DNA of 22,981 nucleotides from a virus, in the IMG/VR virus record IMGVR_UViG_3300030390_001481, positions 1-22,981 of that record; one strand, 5' to 3'. Numbering within the stretch: position 1 is the first letter of the stretch; each line of letters begins with the position of its first letter. The notes under the pieces are model-generated. The model was not told the origin of the DNA. It did no database searches and saw only the letters and a program-made list of their open reading frames with translations. A program made the translations under genes and the position numbers. Shown one piece after another: positions 5,395-22,981 of this stretch.

Positions 5395-5432
5395 CGCGAC
5401 ATAAGGTTAGTTTAATTAAATTGTTATATTTG
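5395..5432 (+). promoter_or_regulatory. groEL promoter with overlapping operator-like site
   Basis: TATATTTG at 5425-5432 matches the flavobacterial -7 consensus TAnnTTTG exactly, 26 nt before the groEL ATG. The -33 region has no clear TTG. It is directly adjoined by CGCGACATA (5395-5403), the exact inverse of the repeat unit at 5202 and 5213. A protein bound there would touch the -33 contact zone and could repress or replace normal promoter recognition. Confidence 0.55.
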
Positions 5433-5458
5433 CAATAATTAAATTAAATTAAATTCAT

Positions 5459-7048
5459 ATGACATACATCCCCAAGACTTTAAGTTTTGACCAAGAAGGT
5501 AGATCAAAACTTATATCCGGAATCACTTCTATTTCTAAAACTGTTAAGAGTACGTTAGGCCCTTTAGGTAAGACTGTTTTATTAGAATCGCCAGAGCATA
5601 CATCAGGAATGACTATAACTAAAGATGGTGTTACTGTAGCAAGATCTATATTTTTAGATGATCCTATAGAAAACTTAGCGGTACAAATGATGAAGAGCGC
5701 AGCAGACAGGACTGCTAATACAGCAGGTGATGGAACAACAACGGCTATAGTTTTAACAGAAGCTATTGTGTTGGCGGGAGAAGAGTTTATAACTCCAAAG
5801 CATAATACCACAGAGGTTATTAGAAATATAAATGAAATAACTAAAGAAGCTTTGATAGGTATAAAAAAGAAATCTAAAAAAGTAACCAAAGAAAGATTGT
5901 TAGATGTTGCTTGTATATCAGCAAACAATGATAAAGATATTGGAAAGATTATTGCAAACGCTTATGAAAAGGTTGGTATAAATGGAATTGTAACAGTTGA
6001 GAGATCTAAATCATCTGATACATATGCGGAGGTTACAAACGGTTTAAAAATAGAGAGAGGATATTCATCTCCTTTATTTATAAATAATCAAAAGAAAGAC
6101 GAGTGTATTTTAGAAGACGTTAAGATTTTAGTTTGTGATGCTTCAATAGAAAACATATTGCAAATAGAAAATGTTCTTAAGCCAGTTATTAATAATGGGG
6201 ATAAGTTATTAATTATAGCTCCTTGTTCTGCTAACGTAATAAATACTTTAGCAGCTAACGTTGTTCGTAATGGTTTAAAGTTCTGTAATATTGCTCCACC
6301 TTCTTTTGGATATAAGACTCATGAGCTTATGCAAGATATAGCTTTAGCAGTAGGGGCTAAGTACTATTCAGAAAAAACTGGAGACGACTTAAGTTTAATT
6401 ATGCCAAAAGATTTAGGTCATGCTAATAAAATTATTTCTAATAATGAAAGTACCATAATATTAAAAGAAGATAATAATACTCCAGAACTTCAAATAAGAA
6501 TTAATGAATTGTTAGAAGCCAGAGATTCTAATGAAAAAAATGTAGATAGAAAATTTATTAACGAAAGAATAGCAAGTTTAGCTGGATCTATTGGTTGTAT
6601 TTATGTAGGAGGCAATAGTGATATTGAGCAAAAAGAAAAATTTGACCGAGTCGATGACTCGGTCTGTGCTGTAAGGTCAGCACTTGAAGAAGGGATTATA
6701 GCGGGAGGAGGAGTGTCTTTACTAAGAGCGTCAATACTTTTAGATAAAAACAAAAAAGCAAATGATGATAATTACAATGTAGCTAACTTAATTTTAAAAA
6801 CTGCATTACGATCTCCTATAAAACAAATTATAGATAACGGAGGTAAGGATTATGACAAAATAATTAATCATATATTTGACAAACCTTATAATACCGGTTA
6901 CGATTTGAAGAATGATAAGTATGGGGATATGTATAAGATGGGTGTTATTGATCCTTTAAAGGTAACAAAGAACGCTTTAACTAATGCAGTAAGTGTAGCA
7001 ACAACTATATTAAGTACAAATGCTATCGTAACAAATATAAGAGCATGA
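5459..7048 (+). CDS. groEL: Phage-encoded GroEL-type (group I) chaperonin, 529 aa
   Basis: Subunit of a ring-shaped ATP-driven protein-folding chamber in the cytoplasm. Full-length alignment to E. coli GroEL is evident from memory. Nucleotide-binding motifs are TLGPLGKTV (32-40), TKDGVTVAR (54-62) and AGDGTTTA (89-96), with catalytic Asp91 (E. coli D87) and Asp400 (E. coli D398) in DRVDD before EEGIIAGGG (410-418). The apical domain holds ERGYSSPLFIN (199-209) and LLIIAP. Differences from bacterial GroEL: it ends at TNIRA without the GGM-repeat tail, and apical groove positions change (E. coli L234 to Glu237, V263/V264 to Ala265/Ala266, Y203 to Leu206). It has its own promoter, and its stop overlaps groES by 4 nt. 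Both ATP-site aspartates are present, so it should be active. Likely client: a phage structural protein (inference). Confidence 0.97.
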   Translation: MTYIPKTLSFDQEGRSKLISGITSISKTVKSTLGPLGKTVLLESPEHTSGMTITKDGVTVARSIFLDDPIENLAVQMMKSAADRTANTAGDGTTTAIVLTEAIVLAGEEFITPKHNTTEVIRNINEITKEALIGIKKKSKKVTKERLLDVACISANNDKDIGKIIANAYEKVGINGIVTVERSKSSDTYAEVTNGLKIERGYSSPLFINNQKKDECILEDVKILVCDASIENILQIENVLKPVINNGDKLLIIAPCSANVINTLAANVVRNGLKFCNIAPPSFGYKTHELMQDIALAVGAKYYSEKTGDDLSLIMPKDLGHANKIISNNESTIILKEDNNTPELQIRINELLEARDSNEKNVDRKFINERIASLAGSIGCIYVGGNSDIEQKEKFDRVDDSVCAVRSALEEGIIAGGGVSLLRASILLDKNKKANDDNYNVANLILKTALRSPIKQIIDNGGKDYDKIINHIFDKPYNTGYDLKNDKYGDMYKMGVIDPLKVTKNALTNAVSVATTILSTNAIVTNIRA

Positions 7049-7302
7049 AGGCAATAGGAAAAAATGTTATCATACAACCAATAGAAGAAGAGATTAAAAC
7101 TAAGTCAGGTCTTCTATTAACAGCTACAGATGTAGATGGGTTTAGATATAAGAAAGGATTAGTAATAAAAGAAGGTACAGATGTCAAGTCAATCAAAAAA
7201 GATGATACTATCTATTATGATAAGTCTGCTGGGTTTAGCCTTCTTATCAATAATACTTCTTACACTATTATTACTGAGAGAGATGTCGTTGTTGTTTTAT
7301 AA
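7045..7302 (+). CDS. groES: Phage-encoded GroES-type co-chaperonin, 85 aa
   Basis: Lid of the GroEL chamber. It aligns with the GroES core: MKAIGKNVIIQPIEEE (E. coli MNIRPLHDRVIVKRKE), a mobile loop with the hydrophobic contact SGLLLTAT (E. coli GGIVLTGS), then KGLVIKEG, KKDDTIYYDK (E. coli VGDIVIFND) and ERDVVVVL (E. coli ESDILAIV). At 85 aa it is shorter than the usual 95-100. The missing part falls in the roof hairpin (E. coli residues about 45-60), as also reported for T4 gp31. It starts at the ATG inside the ATGA overlap with groEL, so it is translationally coupled and in the reverse of the bacterial groES-groEL order. Its last 32 nt overlap the convergent 7271-7711 gene. Confidence 0.92.
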   Translation: MKAIGKNVIIQPIEEEIKTKSGLLLTATDVDGFRYKKGLVIKEGTDVKSIKKDDTIYYDKSAGFSLLINNTSYTIITERDVVVVL

Positions 7303-8365: not shown

Positions 8366-8658
8366 GTGAAAACTTAACAAGCATTTTAATTACTGTAGTA
8401 ACTCTTATGTTTTCAGGAGGTGCCTGGAAGTTCTATGAATTTCTTGTAAAAAACAAACGAGAAAAAAATAAAGACCAAGAAGCAGAAAAAAGTATTTACA
8501 GAGATAGCTTGGTAAAGCGAGTAGAAAAACTTGAATCAGAAAAAGAAAAATGTTTACTATCTTTGTTAGAAATATCTAAAGAAGTATCAGCTCTTCGCGT
8601 ACGCTTAGAGTTTATAGAAAAAGAAAACGAAATATTAAAAATTAAACTACAGAAATAA
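8362..8658 (+). CDS. Single-TM coiled-coil protein, spanin- or holin-like, 98 aa
   Basis: N-terminal membrane helix at residues 7-27 (SILITVVTLMFSGGAWKFYE) followed by a long charged coiled coil (about 40-97) with regular L/V/E heptads (LVKRVEKLESEKEKCLLSLL, VRLEFIEKENEILKIKLQK). This architecture is common in Bacteroidota phage genomes. It resembles i-spanin-type or membrane-anchored scaffold proteins, but no Rz-family sequence signature is visible. Translation is coupled to both neighbours (ATGA with the gene before, TAATG with the gene after). Confidence 0.75.
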   Translation: MSENLTSILITVVTLMFSGGAWKFYEFLVKNKREKNKDQEAEKSIYRDSLVKRVEKLESEKEKCLLSLLEISKEVSALRVRLEFIEKENEILKIKLQK

Positions 8659-9026
8659 TGGCAAAAGTAACTATAAAATCTACGGATACAAAAAAAAACA
8701 AACTAACAGGAAGGACAAAGACTATAACAAGAAGTACAAGTTCTGACGGAACATCTTCTAAAACAATAGTGAAAAGAAGAAAAGACGGTAGTATTAAGAA
8801 GAATAAAACAATATATAAAGGGAAAAAAAGAGGTGACGGTAGTAAAGTAGTAACTAAGTTTAATAAAGCTGGCGCGAGTAAAACAAAAATAGTAAACAAA
8901 AGAGGGAAGACTTCTGAGGGAACTAAAGTAAAAAGATCGGTTTTAAAGTTTCCTAAGCTGATAACAAAAAAGAAGCGACAAAAAAGAACAGAAAAATTAG
9001 TTAAGAAAGGAAAAATGTCAAGATAA
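8658..9026 (+). CDS. Very basic small protein, 122 aa
   Basis: 44 of 122 residues are Lys or Arg and only 6 are Asp or Glu. Short beta-turn repeats of the form 'DGS/T-S/K-x-V/I-K' recur (SSDGTSSKTIVKR, KDGSIKKNKTIYK, GDGSKVVTKFNK), and the C-terminus is a Lys/Arg cluster (TKKKRQKRTEKLVKKG). This suggests a nucleic-acid-binding or condensing virion protein, not an enzyme. The start overlaps the previous stop by 1 nt (TAATG), and the next gene starts the same way. First of 13 small genes in a row. No domain recognised. Confidence 0.7.
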   Translation: MAKVTIKSTDTKKNKLTGRTKTITRSTSSDGTSSKTIVKRRKDGSIKKNKTIYKGKKRGDGSKVVTKFNKAGASKTKIVNKRGKTSEGTKVKRSVLKFPKLITKKKRQKRTEKLVKKGKMSR

Positions 9027-9217
9027 TGCATCAAGGTAAGAAACATAAAAAAAAGCCAAAAAAAAATGCATGGGATGGAGCGGAAGAAATTATTCCTACT
9101 CCTCCAGTTATAAAGAAACCAACAGCAGAAGAGATAGCCGCTTATAACTTGAGAATAAAAAAAAAGAAAGAAAAGAAGAAGACTAAAACAAAAATGAAAG
9201 TTAAAAAAAATGGCTAA
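9026..9217 (+). CDS. Lys-rich small protein, 63 aa
   Basis: 22 of 63 residues are basic, in two clusters (GKKHKKKPKKN at the N-terminus and IKKKKEKKKTKTKMKVKKNG at the C-terminus), joined by an acidic/proline hinge (DGAEEIIPTPPVIKKP). The start overlaps the previous stop by 1 nt (TAATG) and its end overlaps the next gene by 8 nt. Likely disordered and nucleic-acid binding. Unknown function. Confidence 0.65.
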   Translation: MHQGKKHKKKPKKNAWDGAEEIIPTPPVIKKPTAEEIAAYNLRIKKKKEKKKTKTKMKVKKNG

Positions 9218-9362
9218 AAAAGGAAGAACAGGAAAAAAAGTATGTTGGCAATATGGCGGAGGAAAATATTGTGGAACACTAATACCAAGTAGAGAAACGT
9301 CTACGCACAGATATGCGCGTACTGAAAATGGCAAAATTAAATCTTTACCTAAAAATAAATAG
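9210..9362 (+). CDS. Basic small protein with two Cys, 50 aa
   Basis: ATG at 9210 after an eight-A run, stop TAG at 9360-9362. It opens MAKKGRTGKKVCWQYGGGKY and then CGTLIPSRETSTHRYARTEN. Cys12 and Cys21 with a Gly-rich link could form a small hairpin or half of a metal site. Overlaps the previous gene by 8 nt and is followed after 2 nt by the next ATG. Its length makes it easy to miss. The codon pattern and the tight TAG/ATG packing match the neighbours. Confidence 0.65.
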   Translation: MAKKGRTGKKVCWQYGGGKYCGTLIPSRETSTHRYARTENGKIKSLPKNK

Positions 9363-9364
9363 AT

Positions 9365-9484
9365 ATGGCAAAAAAATTTAAAACACACAAGATGTGTAAG
9401 AAAGGGAAATGTATTAAGGTAACTTCTATGAAAGAACATTTTAAATTAAAAAAAGAAGGGTATACTCATTCTAAGAAAAAGTAA
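9365..9484 (+). CDS. Lys-rich peptide, 39 aa
   Basis: ATG at 9365, stop TAA at 9482-9484 overlapping the next ATG by 1 nt (TAATG). It reads MAKKFKTHKMCKKGKCIKVT followed by a basic helix ending HSKKK. Fourteen of 39 residues are Lys and there is no acidic residue except two Glu. The CKKGKC pair (11-16) recalls a CxxxxC turn. Probably soluble and nucleic-acid binding. Family unknown. Confidence 0.6.
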   Translation: MAKKFKTHKMCKKGKCIKVTSMKEHFKLKKEGYTHSKKK

Positions 9485-9777
9485 TGGCCGGCAGGACAAA
9501 GAAAGGTCAGATAAGAAAGACAACAGGTAAAGGAGGAAACTACCGATCTACAAAGTCTGGAGCTGGAATGACCAAGAAAGGAGTAGCTGCATATAGAAAA
9601 GCAAATCCAGGAAGTAAACTTAAGACTGCTGTAACAGGAAAAGCAAAGGCAGGAAGTAAAGATGCAGCAAGAAGAAAGTCTTTCTGTGCAAGAATGAAAG
9701 GAATGAAGGGGCCGTTAAAAGACAAGAAAGGAAGACCAACAAGAAAAGCAATGGCGTTAAGACGCTGGAGATGCTAA
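9484..9777 (+). CDS. DUF6321-type conserved phage protein, 97 aa
   Basis: The C-terminal motif SFCARMKGMKGPLKDKKGRP followed by TRKAMALRRWRC, together with the middle segment MTKKGVAAYRKANPGSKLKT, matches the DUF6321 pattern I know from marine and T4-like phages ('GL..KGR.AYNR..GS.LK ... RKSFCARM.G....D.KG.PTRKA.AL..W.C'). No function is established. It is strongly basic, with conserved Cys68 and Cys97. It shares MAGRTKK at its N-terminus with the 10431 gene. Overlaps the preceding gene by 1 nt (TAATG) and is followed by a new promoter (9790-9797). Confidence 0.85.
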   Translation: MAGRTKKGQIRKTTGKGGNYRSTKSGAGMTKKGVAAYRKANPGSKLKTAVTGKAKAGSKDAARRKSFCARMKGMKGPLKDKKGRPTRKAMALRRWRC

Positions 9778-9789
9778 AAAATTAATTAT

Positions 9790-9797
9790 TATATTTG
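9790..9797 (+). promoter_or_regulatory. Internal promoter in the small-gene block
   Basis: TATATTTG is an exact match to the TAnnTTTG -7 consensus. The ATG at 9802 follows 4 nt later, so the leader would be almost absent. Divides the block into 8658-9777 and 9802 onward. Confidence 0.5.
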
Positions 9798-9801
9798 CAC
9801 T

Positions 9802-9969
9802 ATGCCAAACATGACAAAGAAAGATTATAACAGCATTAACTTTAGCAATAAAGATATAGATAAGCTGTCACTAAAACAAATGAAGATTGCAAAATTAACA
9901 TCACCTTTTAATAAAATAACAGGAAGTGATTTAAAAGCATTAAGAAATAAAAAAAATAAAAACGCATAA
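9802..9969 (+). CDS. Small basic protein, 55 aa
   Basis: ATG at 9802, stop TAA at 9967-9969. Reads MPNMTKKDYNSINFSNKDID then KLSLKQMKIAKLTSPFNKIT and a basic C-terminus. Unlike its neighbours it has a mixed-charge amphipathic middle (KLSLKQMKIAKL), typical of a helix that binds a partner. An alternative start at Met4 is possible. No recognised family. Confidence 0.6.
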   Translation: MPNMTKKDYNSINFSNKDIDKLSLKQMKIAKLTSPFNKITGSDLKALRNKKNKNA

Positions 9970-9971
9970 CT

Positions 9972-10142
9972 ATGCCTACAGTAACACACAAGTGTCCCGA
10001 CACAGGGAAGACAATCAAAAGAACTTTTCCTTACAATGCTGTAGGGAAAGCACAAGCAGTAGAATTTGCCAAAACTATGAATGGATCTATAAAGAACAAT
10101 CCTAATTATGGTATGGAAAAGAAAACTCAATCAGGATATTAA
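9972..10142 (+). CDS. Small protein with HKCPDTGKTIKRTFPY motif, 56 aa
   Basis: ATG at 9972, stop at 10140-10142 overlapping the next ATG by 1 nt. The N-terminal part THKCPDTGKTIKRTFPYNAV could form two short strands with a Cys turn. The rest is AVGKAQAVEFAKTMNGSIKN, an amphipathic helix. The single Cys-Pro and the FPY element recall the C-terminus of the 10995 gene (RAFPYDK). Function unknown. Confidence 0.6.
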   Translation: MPTVTHKCPDTGKTIKRTFPYNAVGKAQAVEFAKTMNGSIKNNPNYGMEKKTQSGY

Positions 10143-10216
10143 TGGCAAAACCTACAATACCTAAAAAACCTACTACAAGACCTATCAAAAGAAAGATAAG
10201 GAGAGTAAAAAAGTAA
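10142..10216 (+). CDS. Tiny Pro/Lys/Arg peptide, 24 aa
   Basis: ATG at 10142 overlaps the preceding stop by 1 nt; stop TAA at 10214-10216. It reads MAKPTIPKKPTTRPIKRKIR and ends RVKK. Eleven of 24 residues are basic, with five Pro. A peptide this short is at the edge of what can be called a gene; the exact TAATG coupling is the main support. Cationic Pro-rich peptides of this kind can bind nucleic acid or the ribosome (inference). Confidence 0.45.
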   Translation: MAKPTIPKKPTTRPIKRKIRRVKK

Positions 10217-10236
10217 TAATTTTAAAAATAAAAAAA

Positions 10237-10428
10237 ATGCAAGGATATAATTCAAGACTTAACGAACATTTAGGAGCAAGCAACGGAAAGAAATCTCAAT
10301 CTATGAAAGACAGAAGAGATGAATCAAAGGCAATGTCAAAAAAAATGTATGGTCATTCCTATGGAGCTGATAAGTCTATGTCGTATAGACACACAGCAAA
10401 AATAGTAAGACACGATCATTTAAGATAA
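10237..10428 (+). CDS. Conserved small phage protein, 63 aa
   Basis: Begins MQGYNSRLNEHLGASNGKKS, then QSMKDRRDESKAMSKKMYGH and a His-containing basic C-terminus. The 'MQGYN.RL.E.LG ... QSMK.RRDESK.M' pattern is one I recall from small genes near the structural region of other phages, without known function. Charged and probably helical. Preceded by an A-rich leader (AAAATAAAAAAA). Confidence 0.7.
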   Translation: MQGYNSRLNEHLGASNGKKSQSMKDRRDESKAMSKKMYGHSYGADKSMSYRHTAKIVRHDHLR

Positions 10429-10430
10429 AT

Positions 10431-10631
10431 ATGGCCGGTAGAACTAAAAAAGATTTTCCAGAGATAAAGAAAAAAAATGAAGGGAAATTTACCTCTTGGG
10501 TAAAAAGCAATATGCCTAATAAAACTACTTGTGCAGCTGCTTCAGCTGTAATGAAAAATACAGATAAGTATTCTGAATCTGTTGTGAAGATGGCTAACTA
10601 TGCAAAAAACTTTGGTTGTAGTAAAGGTTAA
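10431..10631 (+). CDS. Conserved small phage protein, 66 aa
   Basis: Starts MAGRTKKDFPEIKKKNEGKF, sharing its first seven residues with the DUF6321-type protein at 9484. The body, TSWVKSNMPNKTTCAAASAV followed by MKNTDKYSESVVKMANYAKN and a terminal FGCSKG, is a pattern I associate with uncharacterised phage proteins ('KFT.WVK.NMP.K.TC.AAS..M ... YS.SVVKMANYAKNFGC'). Two Cys, probably helical, basic. It begins 2 nt after the 10237 gene stop. Confidence 0.7.
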   Translation: MAGRTKKDFPEIKKKNEGKFTSWVKSNMPNKTTCAAASAVMKNTDKYSESVVKMANYAKNFGCSKG

Positions 10632-10652
10632 GTATAATTTAAATTAAATATA

Positions 10653-10883
10653 ATGGCTAAAAAAACAAAAGTAAAAGGAAAAAGAAAAAATTTATTAAAA
10701 ACAGATCCTATACCTGCAAATAATTTATCATATGAGGATAAAGTAAATTTAAACAGCACAGTAAAAACTATAGAAAAAGTAGAAGAAAAAAAAATCGAAG
10801 AAGAAGCTCCTATAAAAACTTATGCAACGGGTAGACCAATGACTGCTTTTAATAATAGAGTTCGTACTGATCAAACAAACTAA
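10653..10883 (+). CDS. Basic/acidic block protein, 76 aa
   Basis: Lys/Arg cluster at the N-terminus (AKKTKVKGKRKNLLK), acidic patch in the middle (EKVEEKKIEEEAPIKTYATG), then RPMTAFNNRVRTDQTN. The opposite-charge blocks suggest an extended protein that binds both nucleic acid and a basic partner. AT-rich leader with ATTTAAATTAAA and no Shine-Dalgarno sequence. Family unknown. Confidence 0.65.
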   Translation: MAKKTKVKGKRKNLLKTDPIPANNLSYEDKVNLNSTVKTIEKVEEKKIEEEAPIKTYATGRPMTAFNNRVRTDQTN

Positions 10884-10887
10884 AAAA

Positions 10888-11007
10888 ATGAAAGAAAAAT
10901 TAATATCTTTGTATCACTATTTATTATGTAGCTGGAATAGCTTAATGAGATTTTTAACAATAGTAGTAGACAAATGTCCAAACGATAAATGTTCATGCAA
11001 AATTTAA
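10888..11007 (+). CDS. Small Cys-rich membrane-like peptide, 39 aa
   Basis: ATG at 10888 after an A-run, stop TAA at 11005-11007. It reads MKEKLISLYHYLLCSWNSLM then RFLTIVVDKC followed by PNDKCSCKI. The first 28 residues form one amphipathic or membrane-associating helix, and a KCPNDKCSCK cluster with three Cys in eight residues sits at the C-terminus, suitable for disulfide or metal binding. It is the only hydrophobic member of the small-gene block. It overlaps the 10995 gene by 13 nt. Confidence 0.6.
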   Translation: MKEKLISLYHYLLCSWNSLMRFLTIVVDKCPNDKCSCKI

Positions 11008-11168
11008 ACACTAAGTCAAAAGGATTAGGAGACACTATTGCTAAAGTAACAAAAGCAACAGGATTAGATAAGATAGCACACTCAATGGCTCAAGCGGCAG
11101 GAAAGTCTGATTGTGGATGTAACAAAAGAAGGGATACTCTTAATAGAGCTTTTCCTTATGACAAATAA
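10995..11168 (+). CDS. Conserved small phage protein with CGC..RR..LN..FPY motif, 57 aa
   Basis: ATG at 10995, stop TAA at 11166-11168. It reads MQNLNTKSKGLGDTIAKVTK, ATGLDKIAHSMAQAAGKSDC and GCNKRRDTLNRAFPYDK. The 'GLGDT..K.TKATG..K ... A..CGC.KR...LN..FPY' pattern is frequent, from memory, in small phage proteins next to structural genes. No function known. Two Cys in CGC could bind a metal with other residues. Overlaps the previous gene by 13 nt and is the last small gene before the virion genes, 30 nt upstream of 11199. Confidence 0.75.
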   Translation: MQNLNTKSKGLGDTIAKVTKATGLDKIAHSMAQAAGKSDCGCNKRRDTLNRAFPYDK

Positions 11169-11198: not shown

Positions 11199-11999
11199 AT
11201 GGCGTACCCAAAAATAACCGTAAATACAGGAATTGTAAGAACTGTAATAGCAAGTGACACAATTCCAATTCCATCCCCAAGCTTACCAACCTTAACAGGA
11301 ATTGGAACAATGATAACTACAGGTGAAAACACGGTAGTTCTTACAGATGATTTAGTAGATATAAATAATACCTTTGGAATAACAGGAACATTTAGTGATC
11401 CTTTACCTATACAAGCTGGTTTAGACGAGGTATATAATATTAGTACTCCAACAACACCTTTAGCCACTTTAATTACAACCTTACAGTCACCAAATGTTTT
11501 AGGACTTGCTGCTGATGCTTTTCAAAATGGCATAGGCGAGCGTTATGTAATTATAAGACCAGGTCATTTAATAAATACTGCAACTACTGGATCATTTGTT
11601 ACTAACGGAGTTTCTGTAGGAGATGTTGTTGTTAATAACACAACAAATCTTATTACAAGAGTATCAGCTGTAAACAATGAAACTGATTTAACATTAGAAG
11701 ACGATTTATTTGGTAATAGCGTTACTTTTAACGATACATATACTATATTTTTAGGAGGTCAATTAGCAGGCCCTGAAGGAAAATCTTCTGAAGGGTGTTT
11801 ACTATATGTATCTACTCCGACTATAGAAAATTCTACTCCTGGAAATTATGTAGCATCAATAAAAGTTAAGACAGTAGCTGGGGACGATGTAACTTTTCTT
11901 AATTTTCCTGTAGGACATTATCTTCCTGTTCAGATAACACAACTATTTTCTACTGACACAACAGTCGGATCAAGAACTGCTTGTAGAGCTATTTGGTAA
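11199..11999 (+). CDS. Virion structural protein, 266 aa
   Basis: Ser/Thr/Asn/Gly-rich beta protein with no signal peptide. The N-terminal region (PKITVNTGIVRTVIASDTIP) and the C-terminal stretch (TFLNFPVGHYLPVQITQLFS then TDTTVGSRTACRAIW) follow the layout of small phage spike or decoration proteins, in which a '..P.G..LPVQV..V..T.TTA....A.W' tail is common. Between them are three or four blocks of about 60 residues of beta-strand/loop. A minor tail or baseplate component is likely; the exact role is unclear. Starts 30 nt after the small-gene block in an A-rich context and ends 1 nt before the lysis cassette. Confidence 0.75.
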   Translation: MAYPKITVNTGIVRTVIASDTIPIPSPSLPTLTGIGTMITTGENTVVLTDDLVDINNTFGITGTFSDPLPIQAGLDEVYNISTPTTPLATLITTLQSPNVLGLAADAFQNGIGERYVIIRPGHLINTATTGSFVTNGVSVGDVVVNNTTNLITRVSAVNNETDLTLEDDLFGNSVTFNDTYTIFLGGQLAGPEGKSSEGCLLYVSTPTIENSTPGNYVASIKVKTVAGDDVTFLNFPVGHYLPVQITQLFSTDTTVGSRTACRAIW

Positions 12000-22700: not shown

Positions 22701-22981
22701 TCAATCTACTATAGTAGCAGACACAAATAACGATACATTAACATTAGAAGGTGCGGGAGGTATTGTAATTACTACGGTTGCAGGTTCTGATAAAATTACT
22801 TTTACAGGAAGTGCAGGAACAGTGCAAGGAACAGGAACGGCAGGATTTATTTCTCGATTTGCAACGGGTGGTGCAAACATAGAAGATTCAATTATTTATA
22901 ACGACACTACAAATAATTTAATAGGAATAAATGCGGGAACATCAACAGCACAAGGATATACCTTAACAGTTGGTGATGATA
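19798..22981 (+). CDS. Giant repetitive tail fibre/adhesin, 3' end outside the window (>1061 aa)
   Basis: Open from ATG at 19798 to the window edge. Opens MAKIKNTTAYPTVTPSPNDL, then a region with a LIATDVSDNNKTVTFLVSS segment, and continues as Ser/Thr/Gly/Ala-rich fibre. Blocks shared with the other fibres are present: GTVTSVTG, SPVTSAGTITVTG...QYIDGTGALQTF, WLLASETGASETVTNGETVT, SYTNANITVDAFGRITAASD. Near residue 1012 the text becomes GTGTAGFISRFATGGANIED, then NNLIGINAGTSTAQGYTLTV. From known phage fibres this '..FI.RF....I.DS.IY...N..IGI....' section usually precedes an intramolecular chaperone of endosialidase at the C-terminus, which would lie outside the window. An ATG at 19788 gives only a 5-codon frame. 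Confidence 0.88.
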   Translation, partial: MAKIKNTTAYPTVTPSPNDLLIATDVSDNNKTVTFLVSSIASGGGVAQDLQSVLTQGDTAIEDINLTGNINVTGNYSINGTGEFIISGSSGTANQVLAKNSNNVGMVWADPTNQTITWQETLNNSPVATSNPFLTGIFQINDGGAQGTSGLELSGSTFLNVQGKSTFNNLVNITEPNALNFDPDAILTVNSSFGTAGQFLSVNAAATGMEWTGAPTQSTPVISAVLNAGNDTLGQSQLFTGNSTLSLDVSSNILANGSALFRGNNTFSASGTALNTAAITLTGTLYAGISGTGLNGQVLTCLVDSSTGDVSTQWSSAGGSQSLQEVLNIGGTANSSGINIASIGLTGNGSATSSATNGVLSVNAGTLKLDEDTELSLNGDVGTAGYSLVSGGPFSNPVWQNISGGGGSGTVTSVTGFNLPTPTNNLNYIEVSTNMASPTPVITTNLVVDGSVTPLGTIDGTYYYNALGKWATSPGADWNFGLSKIGTVVTVALNDNQPTPRTTNFTLTEGTGISLTQSGTDVVVAYSGSAGITSLGLTSTTLNLTQTGSNTNPATANGLIDVNLSTSGVGAASYTNANITVDAFGRITAASDGGADANTTYTVDIPAATTNINLKGSDGTDDSITLVGGTNVTLTRDSASQITINAASSAGMTSWLLASETGASETVTNGETVTINGGTYIDGVVSATNTIQLDLNATGLPGSNTGSVALVGDNSWANIVKSIGAPQIGATNTGTNPIGTVVYDAATAISTTTFKTYGGGNALGIVPSGGGNLTFLRGDGVWATPAGSGTVTTVGVTIAGDAFDVIVTNPSTTPLAAFTWAGTSAQYITGEGNLATLPTATFTSLTTTGTTGVATLNSGVLNVPNYSPGVTSVGLLMPAAFTISDSPVTSAGTITVTGAGTSAQYIDGTGALQTFSGGGGGTVTEVSLGTLSGITGTVTTGTTNAIINLTNSDKGSVQNIFKNIAVSGQSTIVADTNNDTLTLEGAGGIVITTVAGSDKITFTGSAGTVQGTGTAGFISRFATGGANIEDSIIYNDTTNNLIGINAGTSTAQGYTLTVGDD

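Follow-up and report, generated by a model that had tools for sequence, protein, structure and literature searches.

Phage T4 packages with its DNA a set of internal proteins that is diverse, differs between related phages and contacts the DNA phosphate through its lysines (PMC3012670, PMC7697877). About 1000 molecules of internal protein are held in the T4 head (PMC3012670), and one of these proteins, IPI*, is injected and blocks a restriction enzyme (PMC3012670, PMC7697877). Here we describe a block of 13 tiny genes encoding basic proteins (o1 to o13, positions 8658-11168) in a stretch of viral DNA of 22,981 bases, hereafter the window. This stretch corresponds to bases 1-22981 of the 63,077-base IMG/VR virus record IMGVR_UViG_3300030390_001481, the remainder of which was also fetched. 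The products of the block, predicted here from the genes, resemble T4 IPI, IPII and IPIII as a small, lysine-bearing and varied set; no sequence relation to the T4 proteins was found. We propose, with a probability of roughly 0.55, that the block encodes virion-packaged, DNA-associated cargo that would be functionally like the T4 internal proteins without being homologous to them.

A second described system is the T4-GC119 protein of T4-like cyanophages (Syn9 gp114, S-SM1 SSM1_115, S-SCSM1 SSCSM1_29), which is basic, holds several Cys pairs and combines DUF6321 with the domains GPCG, KIC and CWKG. T4-GC119 is a single chain of 354-768 amino acids (aa), in contrast to the separate genes of the window; o5 carries DUF6321 alone, while GPCG, KIC and CWKG are absent from the window or are separate genes in its relatives. 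DUF6321, like DUF5872 and DUF5754, is a Pfam family of unknown function, and the assignment of o5 to it (PF19846) reaches 75.5 bits (E 5.3e-21) for a Pfam cut-off of 28.5. Elemovirus (Flavobacterium phage elemo) and Cellulophaga phages are among the relatives of the record's TerL, and Elemovirus and Cellulophaga phage phi38:1 are like the window in having groEL/groES and small basic genes that precede those for lysis and tail. However, the stretch of Elemovirus that was read holds one member of this kit of domains (HFGAKGY, QMP85048.1, 82 aa, net charge +17), and phi38:1 has two unrelated structural proteins of net charge +24. Lastly, algal giant viruses share the DUF names in one paper (PMC12085832), a link that rests on Pfam names and on profile matches of phage proteins.

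The 13 open reading frames (ORFs) of the block all lie on the + strand and encode, from o1 to o13, proteins of 122, 63, 50, 39, 97, 55, 56, 24, 63, 66, 76, 39 and 59 aa, o13 having 59 aa from the start at 10989 and 57 aa from an alternative start at 10995. Their junctions include TAATG and overlaps of 1-8 bases, and 97% of the 2511 bases are coding. An earlier note on this DNA had listed these 13 ORFs and their TAATG or overlapping joints, all of which were found, and its counts of basic residues in o1 (44 of 122) and o2 (22 of 63) are exact. Its description of the genes as Lys-rich suits about eight of the 13; o7, o9, o10, o12 and o13 are moderately basic. All 13 proteins are net positive, with a charge per residue of +0.08 to +0.46 (mean +0.21), whereas 53 other genes in the 63-kb record average -0.017 and reach +0.09 at most (Mann-Whitney p 1.9e-8). 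The net charge summed over a single copy of each protein is +167 and, by simple arithmetic, about 750 copies of each would be needed to balance the 126,000 genome phosphates, which makes a partial neutralisation conceivable at T4-like copy numbers.

Such a block could be an artefact of A-rich DNA in which one strand is open by chance, since K-rich sequence contains few stops and since o1, o2 and o8 are without useful relatives. A 265-aa F/L-rich ORF does lie opposite the K-rich genes (8642-9439, minus strand); it is a compositional shadow and not a gene. However, ORFs of at least 24 aa starting with ATG, in their best tiling, cover 98% of the block on the + strand and 8% on the - strand, while over 300 dinucleotide shuffles the coverage averages 18% and peaks at 41%. 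None of the 300 attains the observed value, and chance open frames were rejected because the shuffles never approach the observed tiling. Furthermore, the families have hundreds of relatives, and for ten of the 13 genes the reading frame is kept in relatives. Purifying selection is clear in nine of the ten, with ratios of nonsynonymous to synonymous divergence (dN/dS; Nei-Gojobori method, chiefly against the relatives L001, L002 and L003) mostly of 0.04-0.3, single values having a wide error in genes so short. The weakest of the ten conserved frames is o11 (0.44-0.49 against L001-L003, about 0.3-0.5 at larger distances); for o13, the corresponding ratio of uncorrected proportions (pN/pS) is 0.24-0.25 where dS is saturated. 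Against L001-L003, dN/dS amounts to 0.12-0.28 for o6, 0.08-0.13 for o7, 0.10-0.18 for o9 and 0.12-0.25 for o12. The frames of o1, o2 and o8 agree with the codon-position composition of the genome, which is a weak test in K-rich DNA. The earlier note had regarded a lack of frame conservation in relatives as fatal to its reading; conservation was found for ten genes, leaving aside o1, o2 and o8. The genes of the block are thus real coding genes, more than chance open frames. The artefact, whose probability is negligible for the block as a whole, is refuted for o3-o7, o9, o10, o12 and o13, less firmly for o11, and is possible only for o1, o2 and o8.

Relatives were gathered from IMG/VR for six of the 13 proteins (o3, o5, o7, o9, o10 and o13) and from bacterial genomes for o9. 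Merging loci that share exact 60-mers reduced 394 loci to 173 groups; the family counts given here come from profile searches of these groups and depend on the bait families. The order of the families is broadly conserved across the 173 groups, and in all 5157 pairs of different families lying within 5 kb both genes are on the same strand (5157/5157, the pairs including repeated loci of the same contigs). Close relatives retain o5 to o13 minus o8 but exchange the segment located 5' of o5. For example, L003 retains o3 and o4, whereas L001 and L002 hold other tiny basic genes there (KIC, L1_42 and GPCG, named by motif). More generally, relatives substitute other tiny basic Cys-pair genes, namely KIC, GPCG, CWKG and HFGAKGY. 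Among these swap-in families, KIC is found in 73 groups and GPCG in 70; clustering of the remaining small ORFs added further basic families, in particular HFGAKGY (36 groups, net +22). These sequence comparisons mark the block as a cassette of mosaic make-up that belongs to flavophage-type podoviruses, each phage having its own subset. The question raised beforehand, whether the block is conserved as a unit across Bacteroidota phages, therefore receives a divided answer: the module is conserved, but the unit is not fixed, its 5' half being swapped between close relatives.

Fused forms also occur among the cassette families (KIC+GPCG, L1_42+KIC, GPCG+o4). As domain fusions are a classic type of evidence, they suggest a joint function. 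The KIC+GPCG fusion from a relative matches DUF5872 above the Pfam cut-off, matches at that level coming from L058 and L050, and HFGAKGY resembles DUF5754 below the Pfam cut-off (L208); neither DUF5872 nor DUF5754 was matched by the window's 13 proteins in a Pfam search. In the large contigs L292 (1009-2025), L296 (97-1122) and L300 (17-1216), CWKG or GPCG is fused to a further shared domain (NEIPM..LK..D). In the literature searched, no mention of DUF6321 was found, and the joint occurrence of DUF6321, DUF5872 and DUF5754 as a cassette was not found described, in keeping with the view of the block as an under-described module.

The mosaic composition of the cassette, with members swapped between close relatives, would also fit packaged proteins that are injected as early effectors, for instance nuclease or defence inhibitors like T4 IPI*. 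Their charge would then be a ticket for packaging and ejection and not their function, and the T4 internal proteins are indeed a diverse set countering restriction enzymes (PMC3012670). However, most members are under strong purifying selection and do not show arms-race divergence. Furthermore, DUF6321 and other core members are common to unrelated hosts, unlike host-specific inhibitors. An effector function of this type appears improbable.

A link with the virion is provided by the cyanophages. DUF6321 is present in 168 named phage records, mostly of cyanophages and pelagiphages, and in Kyanoviridae it forms the C-terminus of the T4-GC119 protein. With domain profiles built from cassette loci, four of the GC119 proteins being included in the building, GPCG, KIC and DUF6321 were found in that order in 11 of 11 GC119 orthologs, and CWKG between KIC and DUF6321 in 10 of them. 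In the GC119 protein of ACG-2014f, CWKG did not reach the threshold used, and DUF6321 gave an additional weak match; as a CWKGYKRKKG stretch is present there, unscored by the profile, the CWKG domain is not called absent. A YTDENP mini-domain is shared by small cassette genes of several groups, the N-terminus of the Bellamy GC119 protein and a 360-aa protein (L250 1254-2336, L404 229-2085).

In cyanophages, the GC119 gene lies between terS and terL. The S-SCSM1 copy (SSCSM1_29, 517 aa) bears the name 'virion protein' in its record, where portal, capsid and tail genes are tagged '(virion protein)' and terminase genes are untagged. The S-SCSM1 paper reports that mass spectrometry of CsCl-purified virions detected 45 proteins, 13 of them of unknown function, and that, according to its authors, some of the detected proteins may be carry-over. 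SSCSM1_29 would be one of the proteins detected. A match of HFGAKGY falls in the middle part of phrog_220 ('minor head protein and DNA pilot'), and the domain occupies about residues 531-598 of a putative portal protein of 1393 aa in Aphanizomenon phage CL131 (L418 1908-6089). In phage C75C1, DUF6321, KIC and GPCG genes are flanked by two annotated head genes, the major head protein gene on one side and the head closure gene Hc3 on the other; in L007 and L011 the cassette is in a head-gene neighbourhood, as judged by sequence resemblance only. In phi38:1, the small genes gp069, gp077 and gp080, near the endolysin, share the annotation note of the portal and other virion proteins. This note cites the same-numbered 'phi18:1' gene, apparently by a slip, and the genes bearing it are read as the virion proteome. 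Two of them, gp069 (113 aa; L419 37593-37934) and gp080 (101 aa; L419 42492-42797), have a net charge of +24 each.

These observations bear on two further explanations. The proteins could act only inside the cell and outside the virion, as late assembly helpers, by binding RNA or the nucleoid, or in host shut-off, as phage groEL/groES often adjoin the cassette and as the S-SM1 GC119 protein is labelled hypothetical. The virion label of the S-SCSM1 protein, the embedding of HFGAKGY in a portal protein and the head-module position in other phages argue against this explanation, which we consider unlikely. Host-shut-off early genes in particular were rejected in view of the wrong neighbourhood and the strong constraint. 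Alternatively, the proteins could be exterior parts of the virion, such as small decoration, head-tail cement or tail-fibre accessory proteins. The gene following the block belongs to a tail-fibre-like family, and the GC119 gene is also near tail-fibre genes in S-SCSM1 and RN05-S. However, a charge per residue of up to +0.46 and K-rich tails fit nucleic acid better than the capsid surface, and both lengths and Cys pairs vary widely among members; such exterior parts are quite unlikely.

We favour packaged, DNA-associated cargo. The products would be small charge-rich mini-domains, several of them held by one Cys pair and a Trp. These tiny proteins would enter the head during assembly, contact the packaged DNA and leave with it. 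In T4-like cyanophages, a related subset is joined in a single chain, T4-GC119. The packaging of the separate proteins, their place inside the head, their binding to DNA and their ejection are all steps that we infer. The earlier note had read the block as plausibly a set of DNA-condensing or packaged internal proteins that neutralise the genome's charge or are ejected with it, a reading that is supported in part. The packaging is supported indirectly, by the virion label of GC119, the HFGAKGY domain in a portal protein and the +24 structural proteins of phi38:1.

Several observations weigh against packaged cargo. No shared capsid-targeting leader was seen by eye in the 13 N-termini, and no convincing prohead-protease site was found in the GC119 strings. 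The prohead-protease-like pattern [LIVM]xE[AGS] occurs 30 times versus 14.8 expected in the 11 GC119 orthologs, mostly in linkers, but these orthologs are related and the pattern is individually unusual in only two of the 11 proteins. The S-SM1 copy of GC119 is still 'hypothetical' although the S-SM1 virion was analysed by mass spectrometry, and the basic structural proteins of phi38:1 are not homologous to o1-o13. Only o5 among the window's genes belongs to the GC119 proteins; o9, o10 and o13 were not found in them and are tied to the kit by cassette membership alone. Finally, AlphaFold models of o5 (predicted local distance difference test, pLDDT, 79.6; predicted template modelling score, pTM, 0.51) and o10 (pLDDT 75.6, pTM 0.60), which are of moderate confidence, returned nothing in Foldseek searches against the PDB.

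The individual genes, all on the + strand, differ widely in their distribution. The K-rich o1 (8658-9026, net +38) is essentially an orphan, with one weak match in one other group and a codon-position score that favours its frame; o2 (9026-9217, net +16) and o8 (10142-10216, net +11) are orphans for which no relative was found. The product of o3 (9210-9362, net +11) has a CW...YC pair; this gene has 27 relatives in one IMG/VR scan, occurs in 14 groups and has a dN/dS of 0.05. Three conserved His columns characterize o4 (9365-9484, net +13; 23 groups; dN/dS 0.04). At least 578 IMG/VR relatives and 83 groups were found for o5 (9484-9777, net +30; dN/dS 0.06-0.15). Its family has the invariant residues C68, R70, R94, W95 and C97 in the alignment (C68, W95 and C97 being invariant in 79 sequences). 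Its own C-terminus is RRWRC, the exact WxC ending being found in 67 of the 83 DUF6321 groups, and a sequence search of the PDB with o5 gave no match. It is followed by o6 (9802-9969, net +9; 31 groups; dN/dS 0.10-0.28) and by o7 (9972-10142, net +6; 63 IMG/VR relatives; 43 groups; dN/dS 0.08-0.17), which carries an FPYNAVGKAQA motif.

In the second half of the block, o9 (10237-10428, net +8) has at least 530 IMG/VR relatives, 64 groups and a dN/dS of 0.06-0.18. Its neighbour o10 (10431-10631, net +9; 57 IMG/VR relatives; 46 groups; dN/dS 0.05-0.24) has invariant W23, C34 and C63 and three predicted helices. Neither o9 nor o10 gave a tblastn match in named phages, so that the only sources of both in this analysis are metagenomic contigs and contigs of metagenome-assembled genomes (MAGs). 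The fastest evolving gene, o11 (10653-10883, net +7), occurs in six groups. Four conserved Cys are found in o12 (10888-11007, net +3; 41 groups; dN/dS 0.12-0.33), in a C-W and a CPxxxCxC arrangement. The last gene, o13 (10989-11168, net +6), encodes a DCGCxxRRxxLNxxFPY motif and belongs to phrog_32048; it has at least 574 IMG/VR relatives, 110 groups and a dN/dS of 0.07. The family medians of net charge range from +6 to +30. Apart from the DUF6321 of o5, a Pfam search of all 13 proteins gave no match, and no HU or histone-like domain. It was thus right to say that none has a known role, o5 corresponding to a known Pfam domain of unknown function.

The block genes form one run with groEL/groES and late structural genes. 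Upstream, groEL (5459-7048, + strand), the usual upstream neighbour of the cassette, encodes a phage GroEL with homologs at 75-81% in L001-L003, and groES (7045-7302, + strand) a phage GroES (phrog_3188, E 3.6e-14). The GroEL family is upstream in 42 of the 74 cassette groups examined; a GroES-like cluster occurs in 45 groups. Downstream, the gene at 11199-11999 (+ strand) shares 29-48% with L003 and L052, and many relatives hold a tail-fibre-like or related protein in that place; the tail fibre family phrog_12296 accounts for 20 of 132 downstream ORFs. The downstream neighbours in relatives belong to tail-fibre, amidase, endolysin and holin families. In the window, a tail-fibre-like family gene, an amidase, a holin and tail proteins follow 3' of the block, which does lie just before virion genes as previously noticed. 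At its right end (L086 about 80-100, near position 22,980 of the record) the window contains a short N run, which appears as four X residues in the tail protein.

Two candidate promoters were found in this run. The first, TATATTTGCA (5425-5434, + strand), identified by a pattern scan, is a Bacteroidota-type -7 element that precedes groEL by 34 bases and is a candidate promoter of the operon. The second is in the o5-o6 gap (9778-9804, + strand), whose 24 bases contain TATATTTGCAC and are directly followed by ATG. The window shares TTAATTATTATATTTGCACTATG without a change with L001-L003, L094 and L123. Between these genomes the gap differs only in the first bases past the o5 stop, whereas many synonymous sites have changed in the adjacent coding DNA. 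The gap looks like a Bacteroidota promoter that would yield a leaderless o6 message. An Rfam scan of the window gave no match.

The terL/portal/major capsid protein region of the record was consulted solely for placing the phage. Its TerL shares 71% identity with that of a Manatee Spring podovirus and about 45% with that of Elemovirus, further matches being found in Cellulophaga, Tenacibaculum and Maribacter phages; no close DNA match to the window was found in named phages. Among the o9 matches in bacterial genomes, five of nine are in Bacteroidota MAGs. From the TerL relatives and these o9 matches, there is good support for a host of the phylum Bacteroidota for this marine flavophage-type podovirus.

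Phage genes for tiny basic proteins are routinely passed over or annotated as hypothetical. At least 12 such families, found in very many aquatic phages, are here joined into one module, and the kit is tied to the virion via the GC119 label. This also gives a context to DUF6321, DUF5872 and possibly DUF5754. It is conceivable, though doubtful, that aquatic viruses as different as flavophage podoviruses, pelagiphages, T4-like cyanophages and, by DUF names, algal giant viruses share one kit of Cys/Trp-anchored basic domains, deployed as separate genes or as a bead string, that would make up a packaged DNA-condensing system. If the proteins are packaged, common ocean phages would have in them a general system of DNA-associated cargo.

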